A program made the position numbers and the translations under genes. The notes under the pieces were generated by a model. That model ran no database searches. It was not told the DNA's origin and saw only the letters and a list, made by a program, of their open reading frames with translations. From Dinochytrium kinnereticum (lineage: Eukaryota > Chytridiomycota > Chytridiomycetes > Chytridiales > Chytridiaceae): 33,882 nt of DNA. This document shows, in pieces, positions 833 to 33,614 of the stretch (positions within the stretch are counted from its first letter, which is position 1; each line of letters starts with the position of its first letter). The DNA lies in NCBI GenBank assembly GCA_027604005.1, contig JADGJT010000240.1:1-33882 (forward strand), read 5' to 3'.

Positions 833-1737
833 TCAGGAAGCCGTAGATGGAGGTGGGGTACACGCCTCATGACAACATTTCACAATGTAATGCACAATGC
901 GGTACACCTGCAAAACCTGCAATTCGTCATAAGAACGTAGGTCCATATAAAATGGACCACTTTGCCACAGAAAGCCATCTTCATCGATATAAAGGAACTG
1001 CCATTGTTTTGCATTCGAGAAAATTCCCCAGACGCTCTTGCTGACGTTGCCCGCATCCACGTGAGTCTTGTAAAAAGAGGCGGCCTCTGCAACACATGGC
1101 CACAGATCTTCTTCACCGATGCTCGTCTTTGCTTGCACAGCCACCAGATGAACGTCGCGAGGAATGGTGTTGTCAAGTATGTCCATTCCTTTCCCAAATC
1201 CAACTGCGTAACCTGTTCTTCCAGTGAGCTTGCGTTTCTTCGGACCGTTTGTTTCCACCACCGTCACTTCCAGCTCCGGGAAGATACGCAGGGCTTCGTC
1301 AAATTCAGGTCGAAGAATGATGTCACTGAGAAAAAGGTTGAGAAAAATGCGACGACTGGCTTCATTTAGCTGATGGAAAGCTTTTCCGACTCTTTCAAAG
1401 GCTGCCTTGAATTCAGGTCCTGGGAGAACAGTTTCGTCAATCACATAACCGGTCCACTTTCGATAGGTGGTATTGACTCCGGTGACTGCTTGAATCTATT
1501 CGTGGTCCGCCTAGGAGACCGATTTGGATTCGGGAGGTTCTTTGATGGCGAGCTTAATGAGTGCAAGGTAGTCTTTCCTGTGCTCCCTGGCCTCAGCTAG
1601 ACCATCTCAAGACGGGCCAATTCCTCTTGCTCATCTGAGGTGAGTACCTGCTTTCGTTCCACTTTCTTCACCGCAGCTCGTTGGTCGATGAGGTCCTTGA
1701 TTTCCTGTTCGACGGCAGCCAGTAGTTGATAATCCAT
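833..1737 (-). pseudogene. broken PD-(D/E)XK nuclease-like gene
   Basis: Reading the minus strand from the ATG at 1737, a charged N-terminal helix (MDYQLLAAVEQEIKDLIDQR) runs to a stop near 1600. The frame resumes one base over as DGLAEAREHRKDYLALIK, which fits a 1-nt deletion in the GAGAT at about 1604-1608. That second frame then crosses two TAG codons (1511-1513 and 1496-1498) and stays open to 833. The C-terminal 200 residues resemble a restriction-endonuclease-like fold: a GRTGYAVG strand, a VQAKTS strand, a helix with CVAEAASFYK, then VWGIFSNAKQWQFLYID. Families of this shape usually carry D in the first strand and E-x-K in the second. Here G and Q stand at those places, so the metal site looks lost. 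The fold assignment is inference by pattern only. I call it a pseudogene rather than a spliced gene because the only GT-AG gap that removes the stops is 24 nt. Confidence 0.5.
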
Positions 1738-2050
1738 TTTGTTGTATTTTTGACTGAGACGCAATATCCAACACGTGATACAAAAATTATAATATTAATG
1801 TCATAAACAACAACTCGCAGTTATTATTCGTGGGTCTCAATATTATGAAGTGTAATAGTGGGTCGTTTTATAGCTCCGAATATTCATTTCACGCTTTGGC
1901 CTGCTGGCTTTTGCTGTCGCAGAAGATCTTCTGCGGTATACTTATTTGAATTAGTTGAACGGAAAAGGGAAAGGCAAAAAATGAAAGACGCAAGGTAGAC
2001 AGATCTTGCAGAGCACATAAGCTTCCTTTGCCTTTAGTAGCCCTATCACC
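1738..2050. other. intergenic, no feature seen
   Basis: AT-rich gap between the 5' end of the broken minus-strand gene and the 3' end of the coiled-coil gene. It would hold the promoter of the former and the 3' UTR of the latter. I see no gene or repeat in it. Confidence 0.5.
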
Positions 2051-4483
2051 TCATACCTGTAAACCTCTTGGTCGCTGCAATTCATTATCAAAGTTTGCTG
2101 ACTTCCTATCCAAAGCCACAGTAGCCCACTGTTCGAGGGCACGATTAATCAGCATCTTTGCTTGGGTTAAATCTTCCAATGAACGGGATAACTTGGAAGC
2201 CTCTTCCTCAGCAGACTTCTTCTGCTCCTTAACCTCCAGTAACCTCTTAGTCAAATTCTCAATCTCGTTCTTTAGGTCATTATTTTCAAAAGACACTGCC
2301 CTAAGGTTCAATATCTGGCCGGTACAGAACGATAATTTACGTCGAAATTCGGCCGCTTGCTCTTTCTTCTCTGAATTAAACTGGGATAGTCTCGCGTCAC
2401 TTTTTCGAAGGTCCTCTTCAAGGCGAGATATCTTTAATTTTGTCTCGACGGCAGTTGAACGGTGTTTTGTAAGTTCGGTCTCGAGCCCCTGAATCTGGAA
2501 TCCCATCACAGCCTTAACATCTTTAATGTGACTGTCAAGTTGCTTGATCTTGGCCTCTCTCTCGGATATATTCGACGTTAAAATTCCAATCTTGTCAACG
2601 CTTAATTTGAGCTTTCTCTCCTTTTCTTCATTCTCTTTCTTAAGGTCCAACATCTCAGATTTGATGGTCTTCATTTTCATCTCGTTATCTAAAACGACTG
2701 ATTCTAAATCCGTAATAGCATCTTTCGCTTGGTTTATGCTCAACTCCTTATCGGCAACCAGCCTCAGCAGGTTGGTGTTTTCTTCCATCAATCTCTTCTC
2801 CTTCTTTTCGTTACATCTTGCAAGTCTGTCTATATAGCTCTCTTTCCCTTTTATCGTCGACTCAGCGTCCTCAACTATCTTTGAAAGACGAGCATTCTCG
2901 GATTCGTAAGAATCTATCTTCAACTTGCTCTCCGAGACCTGCTTTTGTAGACTTTGAACTTGTTCCACCTTCTGCTTGACCTTTGAATTATTCTCCAAAA
3001 TCTTTTTCTTCAGGCTAGAGATTTCCTCTACGTTCCGAATAGCTTTCGTCCTATTCGCTTCCAGTGTCGTTTGCATCGTTTCATGCTCTTTCCACGTTTG
3101 GCCTAATTTCTCTTTGCACTCGTCTATGGTCTTCTTGAGCGATGTAATCTCCTTTGCATTTCGCCTTATTTCTTCTTCGTAATCAGCTGCTTGCTTACTC
3201 TGCGCCGAAACGAGATCCTCGCTCTTCTTCAATTTCTCTTTGAACTCTGATATTGAACTTTGCAAAGTCATGATTTCATTTAAATTCTGCTGTGCTTCCT
3301 CTTCTTGATGATCTCCCGTCTCCCTCAACTGTAAAATCGTATATGCGTTCTGTTTCATCTTCTCCTCGTTATCTAGTTTGGTACTCCGCAATGACATCAT
3401 CTCGTTTGAACACTCTCTTATTTTATCCTTATACTCAGCCTCGCTTTTCTGCATTGAATCAATCTTCTCTGTGCTTTGCTTGATCATTTCAGTATTGTCG
3501 TTTATCTTTTGTTTTAGTCTTGAGATTTCCGCCTCGCTCTCCTTAAGTTTCGTGTTATAATCAATGTTCTCTTGTAAACACACCAGAAAGTCTTTCTCTT
3601 GCTGGGCGCATATCTCCTCCAAATATTTAATCTGCCCCTCTCTTTCGTGCACAATACTTTGAAGTCTTTCAATTTCCGCCGTCGAAGTTGACTGAAGACT
3701 CTTTACAGATTCCCTCAATTTCTTGACTTCATTCTTTTGCGTATGAGTTTGATCCAAATATTTGGGGTCAAGTGCTTCAAACGTTCTCATCTGCTCCTCC
3801 ATCTTTGGTGTAAGTGATTCAATCTTTTTACTCTGATATTGCATCGGCTCCGCGTCTGACGGCTTCTGCAGCTTATCATTCGTGGGCATCGTCAGGGAGA
3901 TCGATTTTCGCATCTCTGTTTCTATATGGCCCTGAAGTTCAACCATCGTCCGCTTATCCACTTCCAGCTGCGCTAGCACATCATTTACTCCAAAAATCAT
4001 GTCCTTATCCTTCTTTTCAGCGTCATCAATATCCACATCCAACTTCTGAGTCTCCATATCTACCCCATTCCCCTCATTTCTGAGAGATCTCTCATGAAGT
4101 TTGCTGGAATCACTGCCGCCAGGTATCGCATCGGTTGTCTCGAGATTCTTGGGGGCAGCAGGAGCATTCGTCTTGGTAGGGATACCTTGATAAGTCGAAT
4201 CGGGCCCCTGGATACCTCGCTCTGCAGCGATGCTTATTGAAGCTGATGGGCTGACTTCAACGGGGCGATCGTCCTGCTCGTGGTTGATGGGCCCTGATGA
4301 TTTGTTGAGAGCGTGCTTGGATTTCAGCCTCTTCTTATTGCTATCCGGAGACCCGATACATGCCTCGCGTGCTGTTCGTCTGGAAGACTTTGAGCAGGAA
4401 GGGAAATTCATGTCGCTCGATGCGTCGACTCGCTGCGGGTGCCGTTGGGGTGCCGTCCTGTTGAACTCCTCTGCTTGGTCCAT
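2051..4483 (-). CDS. long coiled-coil protein with six-heptad repeats
   Basis: An uninterrupted 810-residue frame starting at the ATG at 4483. Residues 1-160 are disordered, Ser/Pro/Asp-rich, with basic patches (SSRRTAR near 33; KKRLKSK near 50) that could be nuclear localisation signals. From about 245 to 790 the protein is almost pure coiled coil, rich in E, K, L and S with few prolines. Residues 314-523 are five consecutive copies of a unit of about 42 residues with the shared pattern NEI-sLk-(x)9-Kl. The C terminus (about 735-800) matches the end of the neighbouring coiled-coil protein in order and spacing: LTKRLLEVKEQKK here against LTERLLVAEEKSE there. I do not recognise a named family. 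Nuclear filament or scaffold proteins of the TPR/Mlp or SMC-like type are possible but unproven. Coding is supported by length, codon periodicity and coherent composition. There is no intron, unlike most neighbours. Confidence 0.85.
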   Translation of the reverse strand: MDQAEEFNRTAPQRHPQRVDASSDMNFPSCSKSSRRTAREACIGSPDSNKKRLKSKHALNKSSGPINHEQDDRPVEVSPSASISIAAERGIQGPDSTYQGIPTKTNAPAAPKNLETTDAIPGGSDSSKLHERSLRNEGNGVDMETQKLDVDIDDAEKKDKDMIFGVNDVLAQLEVDKRTMVELQGHIETEMRKSISLTMPTNDKLQKPSDAEPMQYQSKKIESLTPKMEEQMRTFEALDPKYLDQTHTQKNEVKKLRESVKSLQSTSTAEIERLQSIVHEREGQIKYLEEICAQQEKDFLVCLQENIDYNTKLKESEAEISRLKQKINDNTEMIKQSTEKIDSMQKSEAEYKDKIRECSNEMMSLRSTKLDNEEKMKQNAYTILQLRETGDHQEEEAQQNLNEIMTLQSSISEFKEKLKKSEDLVSAQSKQAADYEEEIRRNAKEITSLKKTIDECKEKLGQTWKEHETMQTTLEANRTKAIRNVEEISSLKKKILENNSKVKQKVEQVQSLQKQVSESKLKIDSYESENARLSKIVEDAESTIKGKESYIDRLARCNEKKEKRLMEENTNLLRLVADKELSINQAKDAITDLESVVLDNEMKMKTIKSEMLDLKKENEEKERKLKLSVDKIGILTSNISEREAKIKQLDSHIKDVKAVMGFQIQGLETELTKHRSTAVETKLKISRLEEDLRKSDARLSQFNSEKKEQAAEFRRKLSFCTGQILNLRAVSFENNDLKNEIENLTKRLLEVKEQKKSAEEEASKLSRSLEDLTQAKMLINRALEQWATVALDRKSANFDNELQRPRGLQV
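2915..3544 (-). repeat. five tandem coding units of about 42 codons
   Basis: Within the 810-residue coiled-coil protein, residues 314-355, 356-397, 398-439, 440-482 and 483-523 align end to end. Each begins with a basic or polar residue, then a NEI/KEI/EEI-type core followed by a short Leu-Lys segment, and ends in an I or A before the next unit. Forty-two residues are exactly six heptads, so the register of the coil is kept from copy to copy; unit four is one residue longer. The DNA copies have diverged strongly, so this is an old duplication. Confidence 0.7.
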
Positions 4484-5049
4484 CCAGCCAGCAATTTTTT
4501 TTGTTGTTGGTCGGAGTTTCTGACCCTTGTCCGATCATTGTGTTTTGACAGGGTTGTTGGATGCCACTCACAAAATGCGCTTTTCGAGCTCAAGGGAAAC
4601 ATGAGAGATGTAAGTAGCAACAATTATATCATTTATTGCTGTCTTTATAACATTACTTGATGCTCAAATACAACAATCTTGCTCACGTACAAATGCATCC
4701 ACTTAGTTCAAAGATAAAGAAAAAGATGAATATACGCACAGAACACGAAAAAATTAAAAACTCGTTAAGCATTTACTCCACCAGAACGTTCTTAGGGCCT
4801 GCTTTCATCTCTACTGATGTGGTCTTTGCAATTTGGGGTTGTCATGGGGCATCCACTAACCAGATTGTTATCGAGCTAAGCAAAAGATCGACTTCGTTTG
4901 CTCAAGAGTCATTGAAGAGTTTTTCCGGACGATTCAGTGAGACTTGAGATGCGGTAATGGTGCCTGTTAAAGAGTTTAAAGGGCTTTCAAGCATGTCCGG
5001 CTTTTTCAATTGATCTTTCGATGAAGTCGAGGAACCATCCAGAGAAGTC
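4484..5049. other. intergenic between the two coiled-coil genes
   Basis: This gap holds the promoter and 5' UTR of the downstream minus-strand gene (towards 4484) and the 3' UTR of the upstream one (towards 5049). Another frame on the minus strand is open from 5129 to 4902 and overlaps the end of the upstream gene. I see no intron that would join it, so I leave it out. Confidence 0.5.
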
Positions 5050-16481: not shown

Positions 16482-16555
16482 TGCCTTCCACCAGAGTCGA
16501 ACTGGTGACCTCCTGCTTACTAGGCAGACGCTCTAACCAACTGAGCTAGGAAGGC
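16482..16555 (-). tRNA. tRNA-Thr(AGT)
   Basis: A full 74-nt cloverleaf on the minus strand. The acceptor stem GCCTTCC pairs with GGAAGGC, with A as discriminator. The D arm is GCTC/GAGC with loop AGTTGGTTA. The anticodon stem (CTGC/GCAG) encloses the loop CTAGTAA, giving anticodon AGT; A34 would be read as inosine and decode ACU, ACC and ACA. The T arm is ACCAG/CTGGT around TTCGACT. There is no intron. The internal A box (TAGCTCAGTTGG) and B box (around AGTTCGACTCT) are in place, and T runs follow. Confidence 0.96.
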
Positions 16556-27311: not shown

Positions 27312-30300
27312 TCAATACCCCCTCTTCCCAAGCAACCCATCTCCAGCTCGATATCCCCCCCGTCTCCCACCCGCACCGAGATCCCACCCACGTCTCCCAG
27401 CCTCCCCCACCCGTTGCATCGACTCGATGACGGCGATGAAGGCGATGGAGGCTAACGCCGAGATAAGAAAGATGACGTCGAACCAGCGGGTGTAGTAGTC
27501 AAAGGAGATATTGCCGAGGACGGTGGTGATCATTGTGCTGCGGTTGTTGTTGTTTTAGGTGGTTGTTTGTTTTTTTTTTTTGGAAAGAGTGGTGAGGGTG
27601 TAGGGTAGGTTGGTTAATGCAATTGCTTCGTGGAAGGGAGAGGGGGTAGGGAGAAGGGTAGGAAATTGGTACAGGTAGGGATGGTAGGTCGGGGTCTGAG
27701 GTGAAGAAGAGTGGAAGGAGAGAGGAAAGAGACGGGGATGATGAAGGACGAAGGTAAAGGGGAGGAACCACTGACCGGTATTGAGGGGGAAGGTTCATGC
27801 GCATCATGAGAACTGTGGAGATAAAGTACATTCCCATGAGATGAGTAAGGAAGAGGATAATGTTGTCGGTAGATATGGACCCAGAAACCTGTCTAAACAC
27901 CTGGGCGTGCCAAAAAGAACAAAAAACAAAACCAAAAAAATTAGTTAACCAACGTAACGAAATGGCGAGAAAAGAATAATAAAATAAAAAAATAAACGAC
28001 TCGGTCCAATCTTCCCAAAATTCACCACTGCTATGTTCTACCCCCCCCGCCACTTGCTTCATGTTAATGTCAAGCAGCAGAAGCCAGATCAATAACATGT
28101 AGGCTTAAATGGATGCGATTACTTCGCAGTTACTTCAAATTATTACCCAAGCGCATTCCAGTGGTATCTAAAAATACGAGTCTGGCGCAAGGCCAAGGAG
28201 TTGCTAAACGCTCGAGTGGTCTTTAACGCGTATGGGCAACAATCGCAACTGTGAAGTGTCACTTGCATACGGGCATGTATATCATTGCTCTGCTTCCGCT
28301 GCTTGGCTTTGAAATCACGCAAGGACTCTACCCCCTCTGAAACATCTAACTAAAAGAGAAAAAAAACATCAACAAACCTTCACAAACTGCACCAACACCC
28401 CCCGAATGGAGAACACGACCAACACCCCCACAAATACAAACGACATCTGCTGCGACACCTCATCCACATCCAGCCCGTAGCCCAATCGATGCACCGCAAG
28501 GTTCACCGTGTGGGTCACCGGGTCTATCCCACCCTTACGATGGAGGGCGAGATTCAGGAGTGACTAATTATTGTTTGTTTGTTTGTTTTTTTTGTCGTTG
28601 TTTTTAGGGGAAAGGGTGGAGTTTGGTGAGGATGAGAAAAGAAAGGAAGGGAGAGAAGGAGGGGGAGGACGTACGGTGATGATTTTGTAGACGCAGTAGA
28701 TGGAGAAGAAGTATCCGGCAATGTTGAAGAGTTTTCCTTTCGTGGTTTTGGAGTCGAGGAAGCGGGTCTGATTAAGGGGTGATTAAACGAGGAGGAAGAA
28801 GTTTCATGAGACATGATTTCATTTATTTAATTTTTTTTTTATTTTGTGGGAAGGCGCAGGACAGATTGGGTATAAAGGGCGGTAAAGGGAAGACCGGTAC
28901 CCGTTCGACTTGGAGAGACTCGAGATGGGATTGCATTTTCGCGCTTAACGTTTCCAGAGCTTTGATCTCGGTGTTCAGGGAGGAGAATTCTGATTGTTTC
29001 ATGTTGGAGATTCGGGTTAGTGGTGAGAATGGTGTCAACAACTAGTTTTGACAACAAAAGCAGAAAATATTCAATATGCAATATTTTCGAAATAACGAAA
29101 AACTAAAGAAGTAAAGGAACGAGAAAAGGAAATAAAGGGGGGGGGAAATTTGAAAAACAATGTGTATCGGAAGGTCTGAATAGGCGCAATTGGGATTCTT
29201 ACCATCCACCAATCCCATAGAGAGACTTGACGAGACGCTCGAGACCATTCGACGCACAAACCCCGAGGTCCCACCCTTTTCCAAGCCAAAGAAGTGAAAA
29301 ACCAAAAACCAGCAAAGGTAAGCAAAAATCGCACCTCAAAACAAACCCCACGAGCTCCGCCCACCTCCTCCATAAAAAAAAACGAAGACAAAAGTAAGAC
29401 AGCGCACACCCACCTCAGACCCCCACTCCCCGCCTCTCCCACCCCCACCCCCCTTCCGCTTTAAAACCTCCGCAAGCTTCCTCCTCTTCTCGATGATCAG
29501 ATCCTGGGTACCCTCTAGCTCCCGCTCCGCACTGCGAACATGCTCCGCCGTTACGCCTTTCAGGAAGAAAAAGAGTGAGGTGTAGGGGGTATTGACGGCT
29601 CCGAAACCAGAGAGGATAGCCATGAGCGTCACGCCCACTACTCCTACCCTTGATAGACTTTGCTCGATGGAGAAAAGCCCTTGTTTGTTTTTTTATCATT
29701 GCATGGAATGTGAAGGGGCATTTTTTAGTTTTAGTTAAGAAAGGCGAGAAAAATAGGTTCTTTTTCTCACTCACATAAATGAATCCAGGATCTCGGTCTC
29801 TCGACAAACCCGTCGCCGATCCTCCACATGACGAAAAGGTAGATGGCCAGACACCCGAACGAGATCTGAAACCGGTTTCTCCGAACCCAGTCTACAAAAA
29901 GAAAGAAAGAAAATCATCGGTATATGAAGTGGATACGGAGTAATGGGGGTAGGATAAGGTTCGAGTTGTTAATTTTTTGTTTGTGTTGGTGGATAGAAAG
30001 AGTAAAAAAGGGTAAAGGATGGAAGAGCGTGGAAAGGAGGACGTAACCTACTGTTTGAGGCATCTTCAAAGATAATGAAGAATTGGAGAAAGGGCAGACA
30101 GATCAGGACGTTAAACAGCGCGAGGTGGAGATGGATCCTCCAGAATAGTAGACGTGAACTGGTCCGTCAGGGAATGAGAATATGTTAGAAGCCAGGTCAT
30201 GTTGAAAATAAGAGTGTGAATGCCATGGTGTGTCGAGATTTGATAGTATGTAAAATGTTGTGTAAACAAGTCGAGGAAAAAATAATTAAAATGTTACGTA

Positions 30301-31085
30301 TAGCTCGCTGCGCTCGCCCGAAAAGAAAGTAAATTAAAATAAAGGATTGCTCGCCCCGCTCGCGTTAGGATGAAGATAAAACGTGTATAGCTGGCTCCGC
30401 TCCTGAGTAGAAAAGGCAAAATGTGTATTGCTCGCTTCCCTCGCCAGAAAATAAAACAAAATAGACGTGGCAATGCTTATAGTTCGCTTCGCTCGCGGGA
30501 AGATGAAAAAAGAATGTATAGCTCGCTTCGCTCATAAGAGATCTTGCTCCGCTCGCGGGAAAATAAATAAATGTATAGCTCGCTTCGCTCGCGGGAAAAT
30601 AAATGAAACATGAATAGCTCGGTTCGCTCACAAGAGATCTTGCTCAGACGGCGTAAAAATAAAATAAAGCATGTAAAGCTCGCAAGAGATCTCGCTCCAC
30701 GAGCTGGAAAATAAAAAAGATGTGAAAAGCTCGCTTCGCTCGCAAGAGGTATCACTTTGATCGCGGGAAAATAAATAAAACAGGTATAGCTCGCTTCGCT
30801 CGCAGGAGATCTCGCCACCGCTCAGAATTACCTCTCCTGCACCCCGCCAAGAATATCAAACGAGATGAGCTCAAAAAGCGTGCAAGAGGATGCAAAGGTC
30901 CCACAAAAGGCGAGCCTGGCCAGCGGCCGAACACCGGCCGCGGCAGCGACGCCCCCTCTCCCTCCTCTTGTGTGTGGGTGGACGGCGCCTCCGGCGGTCT
31001 CAATGTAGGAGCTGAACAGGATCTGTGCAATGTAGAAGAAGAATGCTTGGGAGACGGTCAGGAAGAGGCCGGAGAGGAGGGGCAT
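27312..31085 (-). CDS. Golgi pH regulator / GPR89-like anion channel (GPHR)
   Basis: Ten exons in transcript order: 30832-31085, 30052-30158, 29775-29891, 29414-29679, 29203-29275, 28901-28989, 28675-28767, 28378-28563, 27776-27900, 27312-27537; 511 residues, all phases consistent. The reading follows GPR89/GPHR closely: CTLFELISFDILGG, LFSIEQSLSRVGVVGVTLMA, ILSGFGAVNTPYTSLFFFL, a coiled loop (EIKALETLSAKMQSHLESL), KGKLFNIAGYFFSIYCVYK, IDPVTHTVNLAV, MSFVFVGVLVVFSIRGVL, LTHLMGMYFISTVLMMRMN and YYTRWFDVIFLISALASI. The family has about nine membrane spans; it is a Golgi anion channel needed for luminal acidification, and the plant homologues GTG1/2 bind abscisic acid. Unusual are a Gly-rich insertion after the first span and a Gly-rich patch (KGGGGGRGGEWGSE) in the cytosolic loop. 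Intron 1 (30159-30830) is by far the longest and is filled by a repeat array. Confidence 0.93.
30297..30830 (-). repeat. degenerate intronic repeat array in GPHR intron 1
   Basis: About fourteen degenerate copies fill some 530 bases of the intron. In the sense of the host gene the core is GCGAGCGAAGCGAGC followed by TAT and an A/T-rich spacer such as TTTATTTATTTTCCC. Alternate copies are preceded by an AGATCTC block. Exact cores lie at 30578-30592, 30729-30743 and 30789-30803, and a one-base variant at 30482-30496. The copy next to the exon reaches the splice donor itself. The array explains several low-complexity open frames here, which I do not call genes. Confidence 0.9.
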
Positions 31086-31356
31086 GGTGCCGAGTTCTTT
31101 GATTGTCCTGGCTTGAGGGGTGGTGGTGGAATGGTGTTGCTGGTGAGGATGTTGAGGAAGGGAAACGTGTGCGGATGGGGTGCTGCTGGATGGATGGATG
31201 GATGGATGGATTCTTATTATTGTCCATGGTATTTATTCGTGAAGGTACATACCAACAACCATCGTTTGTTTCTACCATTCCACCGAGCACAATAATACCT
31301 GTGGGGTAAATACCTGCGACTGCTGACAAGAATTGAATTGTCACCACTTGAGCCAG
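31086..31356. promoter_or_regulatory. bidirectional promoter region, GPHR / RalGAP
   Basis: 271 bases between two divergent starts. Contains a TGGA tandem repeat (about six units) at 31187-31210. Long open frames occur on both strands here and over the first RalGAP exon, but they have no coherent protein and are set aside. Confidence 0.5.
31187..31210. repeat. (TGGA)n microsatellite
   Basis: Six tandem TGGA units in the divergent promoter region between GPHR and the RalGAP-like gene. Confidence 0.9.
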
Positions 31357-33614
31357 ATGCTGCCGGCCACGGGCGGTGCTGGAGGTCTCAACAACGGCTG
31401 CAGCAATGCGAGCAGCAGCGCCGGCGGTGGTGGGGACGGTGAGGAGGCGCACTCTCGGCGGTTCAGGCGCCGTGCAATGCGCGCATTCCTCGATGACCGC
31501 CAGCGACCCAAGCATCGCATGGCGTCGCTCATCAGCGTTCTGGGTATACTTTTGCTTCATTCGATTTGTTTTCATCGGCGGCTGCTGCTGTTTGGCGCTT
31601 TTATTCCGCTAACGCTGGCCATGCATCCCTGCGTGTTTCATTGCTCGATCGCCCTCAGTCTGCGACTGCTGCTTGATGATTCATTAAATATTGATTTTTT
31701 ACTCACTCTCATCCACTTTAACGTGCCGATGGGACTTGTCTTTTAACGTCTTTCTTTCAACTCCATTCTCCTTCACTAGACACCGCCTCAAGTGACATGG
31801 ACCTGCACAGCCTCTTCAATAACCACCACTCTCACATCCTGCACATCACACATACTATGTTCTTCATCCACGCAGACAGGCTGAGAGGTTGTTGCTCTTC
31901 CTTCTCTTTCCCCTCCATATTTCCTTCGTCTTTTGTTTTTCTTTCTATTTATCTCTATTTGTTTCATGTTTTCTGTTGTTTTTTTTTCTTTTCGTATTTC
32001 TTCTTATTTTTTCTCTAACTTGGTCTTCCTTTCTTATTGTCTCTAACTTCCTTATCTTCTTTCTTTCTTTCTTTCTTTCTTCTACTTACTCTTTCAACCT
32101 TAAAAAACCAGCAAAGGATTCGGCCTCCACCGCAAAAATAATAGACCCCACCGACCTCCTCAAACCCCTCTCCATTCTCTCAAGGGCCATCAAACACCTC
32201 TCACCAGAGACCCTTCTCTCCGCATTAACCCACCCCCACCACCCCATCCTCCCAATCCTCTCCTCCCTCCTCACCCCCTCAAACTCCCTCAGGCTTCGTC
32301 ACGAGGGCCTCAAGCTCCTCCTTCAATGCATCAACGTTCTAGCCCCCCACTCTCCGCATTCAACAACAACGACGACGAGGACTGGCCTGGCCCAACTCTT
32401 TGCCTTGTATAACGCCTCTATCCCTTTGGACGCGCTTTGGGGCGTCGAGGCAGAGAGGGCCGCCGCCGCTTGGCCCGCTCCAAGGGAGGTAGCATTGGCG
32501 CATGGGTGGGGTGAGGATGTCGATTGGTTCTTGAAAGAGGGGAGTGAGTGGATTGGGAAGGAGGGGGGATGGGCTGGTAACGTGACAGGTTTTCGGGGAT
32601 TGCATGGGGGGGTTGGTCTTTCTGGTAAGTGCAAGCGATAACGAGATCTCCTGTGAGCGCAGCGAGCTATGTATATATACATTTTTTTTTCCTCTTTCGG
32701 GCGAAGCAAACTACCATCTATTTCGATTCTAATTTGCGAGATCTCCAGCAAGCTATGTTTTACTGTGTTTTTCTTTTGCAAGCGTAGCGAGCTGTATTTA
32801 TTTTGATTTTAATTTCTCACACATACAATTACATCTTAATTCATTCCACCCCTTCCTCCTTTCCTCCTTACACTAACCTTTCTATGAAAAATAGCCCCTA
32901 TCCTCACCTCCCCAGCCCCCATAACCCCCCAGGAGACCCTCGACCTTCTCCAAGAGATCCTTACGAACCTTACAAACCTCTCCCAGACCACCTCCAACGC
33001 CCCCCTAACCACCACCGCCCATGTCCTCTCCGCCTCTACTCGACTCGATGACGGCACGCCTTTCGGGGATAACCTGGGAAAGGCCGATCTGGGGGCTTTG
33101 GGGGAGCCTGGACGGATAAAGGGGGGTGAGGCTTTGGAGGTTCAGTGGGGGTTGTTTAGGGAGACCTTTTTAAGAGGGTTGTTTCCTGCTGTTGGAAGAC
33201 AGTTAACGGGGGTTAGGATGGGAGATGAGGGGGAAGGTGCGTTTGCGTTTACTTTTTTGGTCTTTTGATTGTTTTTTGTTTTTTGATCCTAGCCACTCAT
33301 TCTTCCTCCCGGCTTTCCCCGTCTCCATTTCTCTGAACCTACAATCACAAACCTAATCGTCCCACCCCCCACCCCTAAAAAAAAAAAAGCGCCCCCCTGC
33401 CCCCCTCCCCTCCTTCACCTGCTCCTCGAGTTAATCGTTCAGAACCTCATCGACGCCTCCTCCTCCACGGCGAGCTTGAGACGGCTTCTGCTGGATGATG
33501 TGGTGAATCGGGAGTACGTGCATGAGATTGTGAGGCAGGGGTGTTTGGCGCCGTTTGGAGCTGGACGGGTCGGAAAGTTGGCAATTTGCGTTGTTCGGGG
33601 GTGGAGTTTTTGGG
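31357..33614 (+). CDS. RalGAP-alpha-like (tuberin-type) GAP, N-terminal part, runs off the window
   Basis: Exons 31357-31543, 31780-31887, 32112-32624, 32895-33236 and 33390 to about 33614, all phase 1; about 458 residues so far. The assignment rests on the order of segments shared with the alpha subunit of RalGAP. First comes FLDDRQRPKHRMASLISVLD (human: a VLDTKKD-type helix), then DLHSLFNNHHSHILHI. Next is SLRLRHEGLKLLL before AQLFALYNASIPL (human: REGVRLFLLWLQ, then a Cys-Leu-Ile-Pro segment). Last is VNREYVHEIVRQGCLAPF, followed by a VxxW segment (human: a FVTEIFRQAFLLP block). The catalytic Rap/Ran-GAP domain would lie beyond 33882. RalGAP stimulates GTP hydrolysis by Ral/Rheb-like GTPases in a complex with a beta subunit. 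The first ATG and the last donor are uncertain, and the final 270 bases are probably intron. Confidence 0.7.
32054..32083. repeat. (TTTC)n microsatellite in RalGAP intron 2
   Basis: About seven TTTC/TTCT units in the polypyrimidine part of the intron, some 30-55 bases before the acceptor at 32110-32111. Confidence 0.85.
32625..32800 (+). repeat. copies of the GPHR-intron repeat in RalGAP intron 3
   Basis: Three to four degenerate copies of the family seen in GPHR intron 1. The first starts at the splice donor (32625-32670; GAGATCTCCTG, then AGCGAGCTAT). The others are at about 32695-32715 (CTTTCGGGCGAAGC), 32733-32762 (GCGAGATCTCCAGCAAGCTATG) and 32778-32795 (GCAAGCGTAGCGAGCTG). The copies read in the same sense as transcription, as they do in GPHR. 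Confidence 0.85.

Follow-up and report, generated by a model that had tools for sequence, protein, structure and literature searches.

Why do the introns of two neighboring genes, transcribed in opposite directions, begin with nearly the same sequence? The question was raised by a preliminary description of a 33,882-nt stretch of the genome of the chytrid Dinochytrium kinnereticum (Chytridiomycota, Chytridiaceae; contig JADGJT010000240.1 of assembly GCA_027604005.1; we call this entire stretch the window). According to that description, an intron of a putative GPHR gene (minus strand) and an intron of its divergent neighbor (plus strand) share a repeat, which begins at the 5' splice site and lies in the sense orientation in both genes. 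Insertion of introner-like elements, which arrive as ready-made introns, was suggested as the cause, or else gene conversion between introns. We propose, with about an even chance of being right, that the shared block is a repeat unit from a family of intronic minisatellites that is specific to this genome, grew within existing introns, and has been kept in the sense orientation.

A block shared by two neighboring introns

When the two introns are aligned without gaps from their initial GT, 37 of the first 46 bases are identical. Intron positions 18–46 match best (27/29 identical), and the next 14 positions match poorly (5/14). The 46-nt block lies at 30786..30831 on the minus strand in intron 1 of GPHR, where it includes the first base of the donor, and at 32625..32670 on the plus strand in the neighbor's intron. 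(The GPHR donor, GTAATT, begins at 30831, not at 30830 as first described, and the block runs from 30831 down to 30786.) In a repeat search of the window, the longest inverted repeat was this very pair (30786–30832 and 32624–32670, 81%). Furthermore, we compared 23,005 pairs of introns, taken from those predicted to be 60 nt or longer in the window and in 23 further loci of the same genome, and no other pair has as good an ungapped match from the donor: the runner-up has 32 identical bases, and the mean is 15.2 (standard deviation 3.8). The similarity that is anchored at the 5' splice site is real, then, and the 3' halves are as unlike as was claimed: the last 46 bases are identical at 14 positions, which is the level of chance (the mean over all pairs is 14.0).

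In each of the two introns, the block is a single unit of a larger array. If up to 4 mismatches are allowed, the GPHR intron contains 11 copies of the core and the neighbor's intron contains 3. In the GPHR array (30300..30813, minus strand), all 11 copies are in the sense orientation, and each unit has the core GCGAGCGAAGCGAGC, then YAT (where Y is T or C), and then a T-rich spacer. The neighbor's array (32643..32795, plus strand) has cores at 32653–32667 and 32778–32792 and a weaker core between them.

The units of these two arrays also have something of their own. A variant ahead of the core, GAGATCTC, occurs a second time in the neighbor's array, at 32738; outside the window, the places that match it with one mismatch are one exon and one site between genes. 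The longer sequence GAGATCTCYTGYGAGC has just three exact matches in 22.4 Mb, and every one is inside the two window introns. This suggests that the GAGATCTC sub-variant, private to this pair, may stem from a recent exchange between the two neighboring introns. Of the two causes named in the preliminary description, such exchange fits the pair-private GAGATCTCYTGYGAGC better than the insertion of a ready-made intron does.

Close copies across the genome are intronic and in the sense orientation

The repeat, whose core is about 18 nt long (GCGAGCGAAGCGAGC(T/C)AT), recurs across the genome, often in tandem and with mostly T-rich spacers. Its host genes and introns were predicted with a two-strand gene finder, which we trained on the window and 15 loci and which called a total of 234 introns in the window plus 23 loci. 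By these models, introns make up about 30% of the sampled letters, exons 55%, and intergenic DNA 16%.

With at most one mismatch, GCGAGCGAAGCGAGCYAT is found at 37 places in the 22.4-Mb genome, and the reversed control is found at none (our genome-wide pattern counts are lower bounds). All 37 copies are within 12 introns and are in the sense orientation. At up to two mismatches there are 56 copies at 21 places, of which 54 are in 19 introns and are again all sense; the remaining 2 are in predicted exons and antisense to them. (The count of 56 comes from the match list of a slightly wider pattern, and the surroundings of all 21 places were examined; a further place, matched by another pattern on contig C256, is in an exon.) Allowing three mismatches in the 15 bases of the core gives 91 matches in the sampled DNA. 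Again, every intronic match is sense: 84 of 84, in 21 introns. The other seven matches are exonic (4 antisense, 2 sense) or intergenic (1). An intron-by-intron count, with only sense copies in 21 of 21 introns that carry a core match, has P = 9.5e-7. So the orientation is fixed relative to the host gene, as had been claimed from the two window introns, and the close copies are not spread over intergenic DNA or in both orientations.

GCGAGCGAAGCGAGC holds a mirror palindrome (CGAGCGA/AGCGAGC), so the reversed pattern is not a valid control for the bare core (84 vs. 85) and is inflated for the 18-mer; we rely on the low-mismatch patterns that include the tail after the core. The inner 13-mer of the core has two exact matches in predicted exons. 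We also considered that the core might be a general intron word. This was ruled out by the counts in the 213 other introns: GCGAGC occurs 5 times in sense and 4 times in antisense, AGCGAG 5 and 14 times, and GAGCTAT 4 times and once.

Units are more alike within an intron than between introns

Per 33 sites, two units from the same intron differ at 8.1 sites on average (220 pairs), vs. 13.2 sites for units from different introns (1991 pairs). Within an intron, spacers and copies are both alike, while different introns share mainly the core and the YAT that follows it. Tandem units of roughly 10–60 bp that are more alike within than between arrays are what define a minisatellite, and the family fits this definition. 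In the larger arrays, the spacing of units is about 25 nt, about 40 nt, or 36–60 nt; in GPHR it is irregular. The largest array (locus L037 on contig C212, in an intron at 1108–2078) has 19 core matches at up to three mismatches and includes a 265-nt higher-order duplication of several units (231/280). Most spacers are T-rich, but those of the array on contig C522 (locus L051) are not.

Placement of the arrays in introns and genes

Across the 21 introns, the first copy begins 11 to 237 nt from the donor, and the last copy always ends at least 74 nt ahead of the acceptor. The array is closer to the donor than to the acceptor in 19 of 21 introns (P = 2.2e-4, with the GPHR acceptor corrected). 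So closeness to the 5' splice site holds up as a trend, but the constant 18-nt distance of the preliminary description is a property of the window pair only. Array introns are 200–971 nt long, and their median length is 408 nt, vs. 145 nt for other introns. By gene model, 20 of the 21 are intron 1 or 2, as compared to 30 of 70 others that are 200 nt or longer (P = 1e-5); the 70 are those with the gene start inside the sampled stretch, and these are ab initio models, with first-exon prediction as their weak point.

Fourteen of the 21 host genes have one or more exons with a Pfam match (E < 1e-3) on the predicted strand. The matches are GPHR, bestrophin, TSNAXIP1-like, kinesin, FAD oxidoreductase, ANF receptor, ABC transporter, AMP-binding, TRP-like, Arf, Sel1, pyridine-nucleotide oxidoreductase, acetyl-CoA hydrolase, and sphingolipid desaturase; those to AMP-binding, Arf, and Sel1 fall under Pfam's curated cut-off. 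In the Arf host, the array intron splits the domain match at profile positions 80/83. The other 7 host genes have no Pfam match at E < 1e-3 in the exons that were tried (a malate synthase-like one has 0.048).

We noticed one other arrangement that resembles the window pair. At locus L036 (contig C27), two nearby genes in opposite directions both have core copies in intron 1 (1669–2216, minus strand, and 4192–4824, plus strand), although the copies in the bestrophin gene are weak.

A minisatellite family that may be kept in the sense orientation

Our favored explanation is as follows. A short module would have passed between existing introns by exchange of sequence, probably assisted by the T-tracts on their sense strands, and slippage and unequal exchange would then have amplified it where it had arrived. 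Copies would survive only if they are transcribed in the sense direction within an intron, due to a constraint on the pre-mRNA; alternatively, the constraint may act on the sense strand during transcription. A recent swap between the neighboring genes would have left the window introns with their private GAGATCTC sub-variant. No creation of introns is required.

Several observations weigh against this explanation. A function of the sense strand, like the age of the introns, can only be presumed from the DNA sequence of a single genome. Only about 20 introns have arrays, out of perhaps 28,000 in the genome (extrapolated from 234 introns in 184 kb), which argues against a general role in splicing. 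Among looser copies, the family becomes less distinct: with three mismatches allowed, the 18-mer matches 113 places vs. 39 for the reversed control (although that control is inflated), and 8 extra loci with three mismatches gave 4 copies in introns in sense, 1 in an intron in antisense, 5 in exons, and 1 between genes. Five of the 21 introns have just a single core match, even with three mismatches allowed. Also, the copies were found via the core, so its conservation is inflated.

The gene models raise doubts of their own. Self-training of the gene finder used 164 kb that were mostly selected for carrying core matches, and in GPHR the program passed over exon 2 and so called an intron of 940 nt. 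When the arrays were reversed in place, an intron on the same strand was still called in 15 of 21 cases; 1 call flipped (C212) and 5 became mainly intergenic. When the arrays were replaced by random letters, the intron call stayed on the same strand in 16 of 21 cases and was mixed in the other 5, with no flips. GPHR and the desaturase, whose calls are lost when the array is reversed, have their strand fixed by homology; the desaturase, as joined from our model on contig C21, is 100% identical to a D. kinnereticum protein.

Finally, sense T-tracts are common in introns in general. Runs of at least eight Ts occur at 2.07 per kb on the sense strand of introns vs. 0.71 per kb on the antisense strand (and at 0.58 and 0.61 per kb on the two strands of intergenic DNA). 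In introns of at least 200 nt, runs of at least six Ts are denser in the 5' half (6.45 vs. 3.56 per kb), so the tract at the 3' splice site does not account for the extra T runs. Given this excess in sense and in the 5' half, part of the bias of the arrays could be neutral.

Alternative explanations

The arrays might be entirely neutral: ectopic conversion or template switching, guided by T-tracts, would copy the core from intron to intron, and slippage would enlarge the arrays, with no function and no selection. We consider this somewhat doubtful. With sense T-tracts roughly three times as dense as antisense ones, and denser in the 5' half, a bias toward the sense orientation and toward the donor would arise without any function, and most spacers are indeed T-rich. 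However, multiplying tract density by area predicts that about 60% of copies should be in introns in sense, 21% in introns in antisense, and 19% in intergenic DNA, and under these proportions the probability of 19 sense introns out of 19 is near 7e-5. Neutral copying also fails to explain why the C522 array is in the sense orientation despite its spacers, or why introns 1 and 2 are preferred. That all 19 introns are sense, when about 60% would be expected from T-tracts, suggests that there may be a constraint on the transcript.

If so, the repeat might do something in the RNA. In one version, which we think unlikely, it would be a sense-only RNA module of promoter-proximal introns that spreads and multiplies by minisatellite growth, with unstructured cores that would tune splicing or expression. 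We give still less credence to a dedicated element for RNA function or intron-mediated enhancement, in which the unstructured sense core would bind a protein on the nascent pre-mRNA near the promoter and would raise expression or aid the splicing of longer 5' introns, with additive effects of the copies. The sense orientation, the donor-side position, the preference for introns 1 and 2, and the length of the host introns all fit such an element. Also, the arrays of GPHR and C212 fold less stably than shuffled sequences (z = +3.9 and +9.6), as might be expected of an open platform for binding. But their antisense strands fold just as poorly (z = +4.1 and +9.0), and the mean z over the 21 introns is similar for the two strands (+0.73 in sense and +0.88 in antisense). 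Furthermore, very few introns bear the core, and the host genes have no obvious function in common. We also noticed that GAGC ranks 12th of 256 at donor positions 3–6 under the trained donor model, which fits the functional element as well. The core is weakly donor-like by this model, and mimicry of splice sites is suggestive only.

Introner-like insertion, in which mobile ready-made introns with a shared 5' module would have created the host introns, seems very improbable. In its favor are the sense orientation, the closeness to the 5' splice site, and the similarity of the window pair from the first intronic base onward. As set out in PMC9860276, introners are recognized by similarity within ten intronic bases of the boundary at both the 5' and the 3' end, in a family of at least four similar introns; searches for them exclude introns whose similarity is confined to the interior, and many families have target-site duplications or terminal inverted repeats as a signature (PMC9860276). 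The arrays do not have this form. Similarity is at the 5' side only, with the last 46 bases of the window pair at the level of chance; the shortest array intron has 200 nt and the longest 971 nt; and no array comes closer than 74 nt to the acceptor. No other sampled pair exceeds 32/46 from the donor or 30/46 to the acceptor without gaps, and no family of four or more similar introns emerged from this ungapped comparison of ends in the 23,005 pairs. As for target-site duplications, matches of at least four bases between the donor and acceptor flanks are slightly more common in array introns (3/21 vs. 12/212 other introns, P = 0.14), and AG is raised before both splice sites. Array introns show no excess of terminal inverted repeats (the longest exact run is 6, vs. 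up to 9 in other introns). Nor did the whole genome contain any copy outside of introns, at up to one mismatch, that could be a mobile source element. With 3' ends and lengths that differ, we rejected introners as the main account of these introns.

We also rejected, as barely credible, the reading in which the sense core would form a small hairpin, GCGAGC-GAA-GCGAGC, that includes tandem G-A pairs: the sense RNA is predicted to fold as ((..((...))..)) at −2.1 kcal/mol while the antisense has no fold, and the loop is among the most variable positions, but 79 distinct copies show no covariation (252 of 316 cells are paired vs. a shuffle mean of 253.8, P = 0.78) and whole arrays are no more structured than shuffles.

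Gene models in the window

The GPHR gene (27312–31085, minus strand) was correctly named: it matches Pfam's GPHR_N (E = 1.5e-21) and ABA_GPCR (E = 1e-7). Exon 1 is at 30832..31085, with the predicted ATG at 31085. It is followed by intron 1 (30159..30831, minus strand; 673 nt, phase 2), which is mostly repeat array. The junction is colinear with GPHR of Chytridium lagenaria: the hand-joined product, ...GGVQE/SSRLLFW..., aligns to the C. lagenaria protein without a gap at the junction (71% over 235 amino acids).

The best 120 protein matches to GPHR include several chytrid orthologues and no entry from D. kinnereticum, although the D. kinnereticum desaturase is present in the same database. The public annotation of this species may lack GPHR or have a broken model of it, and the 673-nt array intron is a possible cause.

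The predicted start codons of GPHR and its neighbor are head to head, separated by a gap of 271 bp (31086..31356), and the two arrays flank this gap, one in the first intron on one side and the other in the second intron on the other side. The neighbor had been labeled RalGAP, which we could not confirm: four of its exons matched nothing in Pfam at E < 0.1, and the contig ends before the gene does. By gene model, its array intron (32625..32894, plus strand, 270 nt) is number 2 rather than number 3, with some uncertainty about the gene's 5' end. The strand call for this intron is stable whether its array is reversed or swapped for random letters.

A scan of the window and loci L036, L037, L043, and L051 with Rfam 15 found no known RNA in the array introns; the only hit was a transfer RNA gene in the window (16482–16555, minus strand; RF00005, 67 bits).

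Comparison with known systems

Several known systems share features with this family. Like introners, it is a repeat common to introns of unrelated genes, with a constant orientation and a position near the 5' splice site (PMC9860276, PMC4457414). But introners give rise to new introns and are similar all the way to the two splice sites (PMC9860276, PMC4457414), whereas in D. kinnereticum a short tandem core lies within introns that differ in length and at the 3' end. Intron-mediated enhancement offers another parallel: its motifs are found in promoter-proximal introns (PMC8157754), as are our arrays by the ab initio models (20 of 21 in intron 1 or 2). Those motifs are hexamers in first introns, with evidence from expression (PMC8157754), while D. 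kinnereticum has long arrays in few genes.

Two other systems show that the main ingredients are known already (strand-biased intronic tandem repeats, PMC3152781, and an intronic minisatellite linked to splicing, PMC4039745). CeRep25B of Caenorhabditis elegans is a mostly intronic minisatellite with a short unit, and it was proposed to affect splicing (PMC4039745). It is palindromic or nearly so and is clustered on two chromosomes (PMC4039745), while the D. kinnereticum core is not self-complementary in the Watson-Crick sense, is spread over many contigs, and is oriented. In Daphnia, strand-biased tandem repeats prefer one strand of the intron and are T-rich in sense, as here, and their authors propose a selective advantage (PMC3152781). 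Ours is likewise a strand-biased intronic repeat, with 84 of 84 core matches sense in 21 introns and, at the 8 weak loci, 4 sense copies and 1 antisense. The difference is in the motif and in the strength of the bias: the intron cases in Daphnia are simple T-rich motifs with a graded bias (PMC3152781), while D. kinnereticum has a GC-rich core of about 18 nt in 19 introns and, with two mismatches allowed, no intron with a copy in antisense.

We found no account of this repeat in the open-licence literature on introners, intronic repeats, minisatellites, and chytrids, and as far as our searches show, such a GC-rich core with no antisense intron copy at that threshold is undescribed. The family illustrates how a shared 5' module may mimic an introner. 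And with its close copies in introns, in a single orientation, and mostly toward the donor of intron 1 or 2, it poses a clean question: does selection on the pre-mRNA shape the repeats of introns, or does strand-biased copying?

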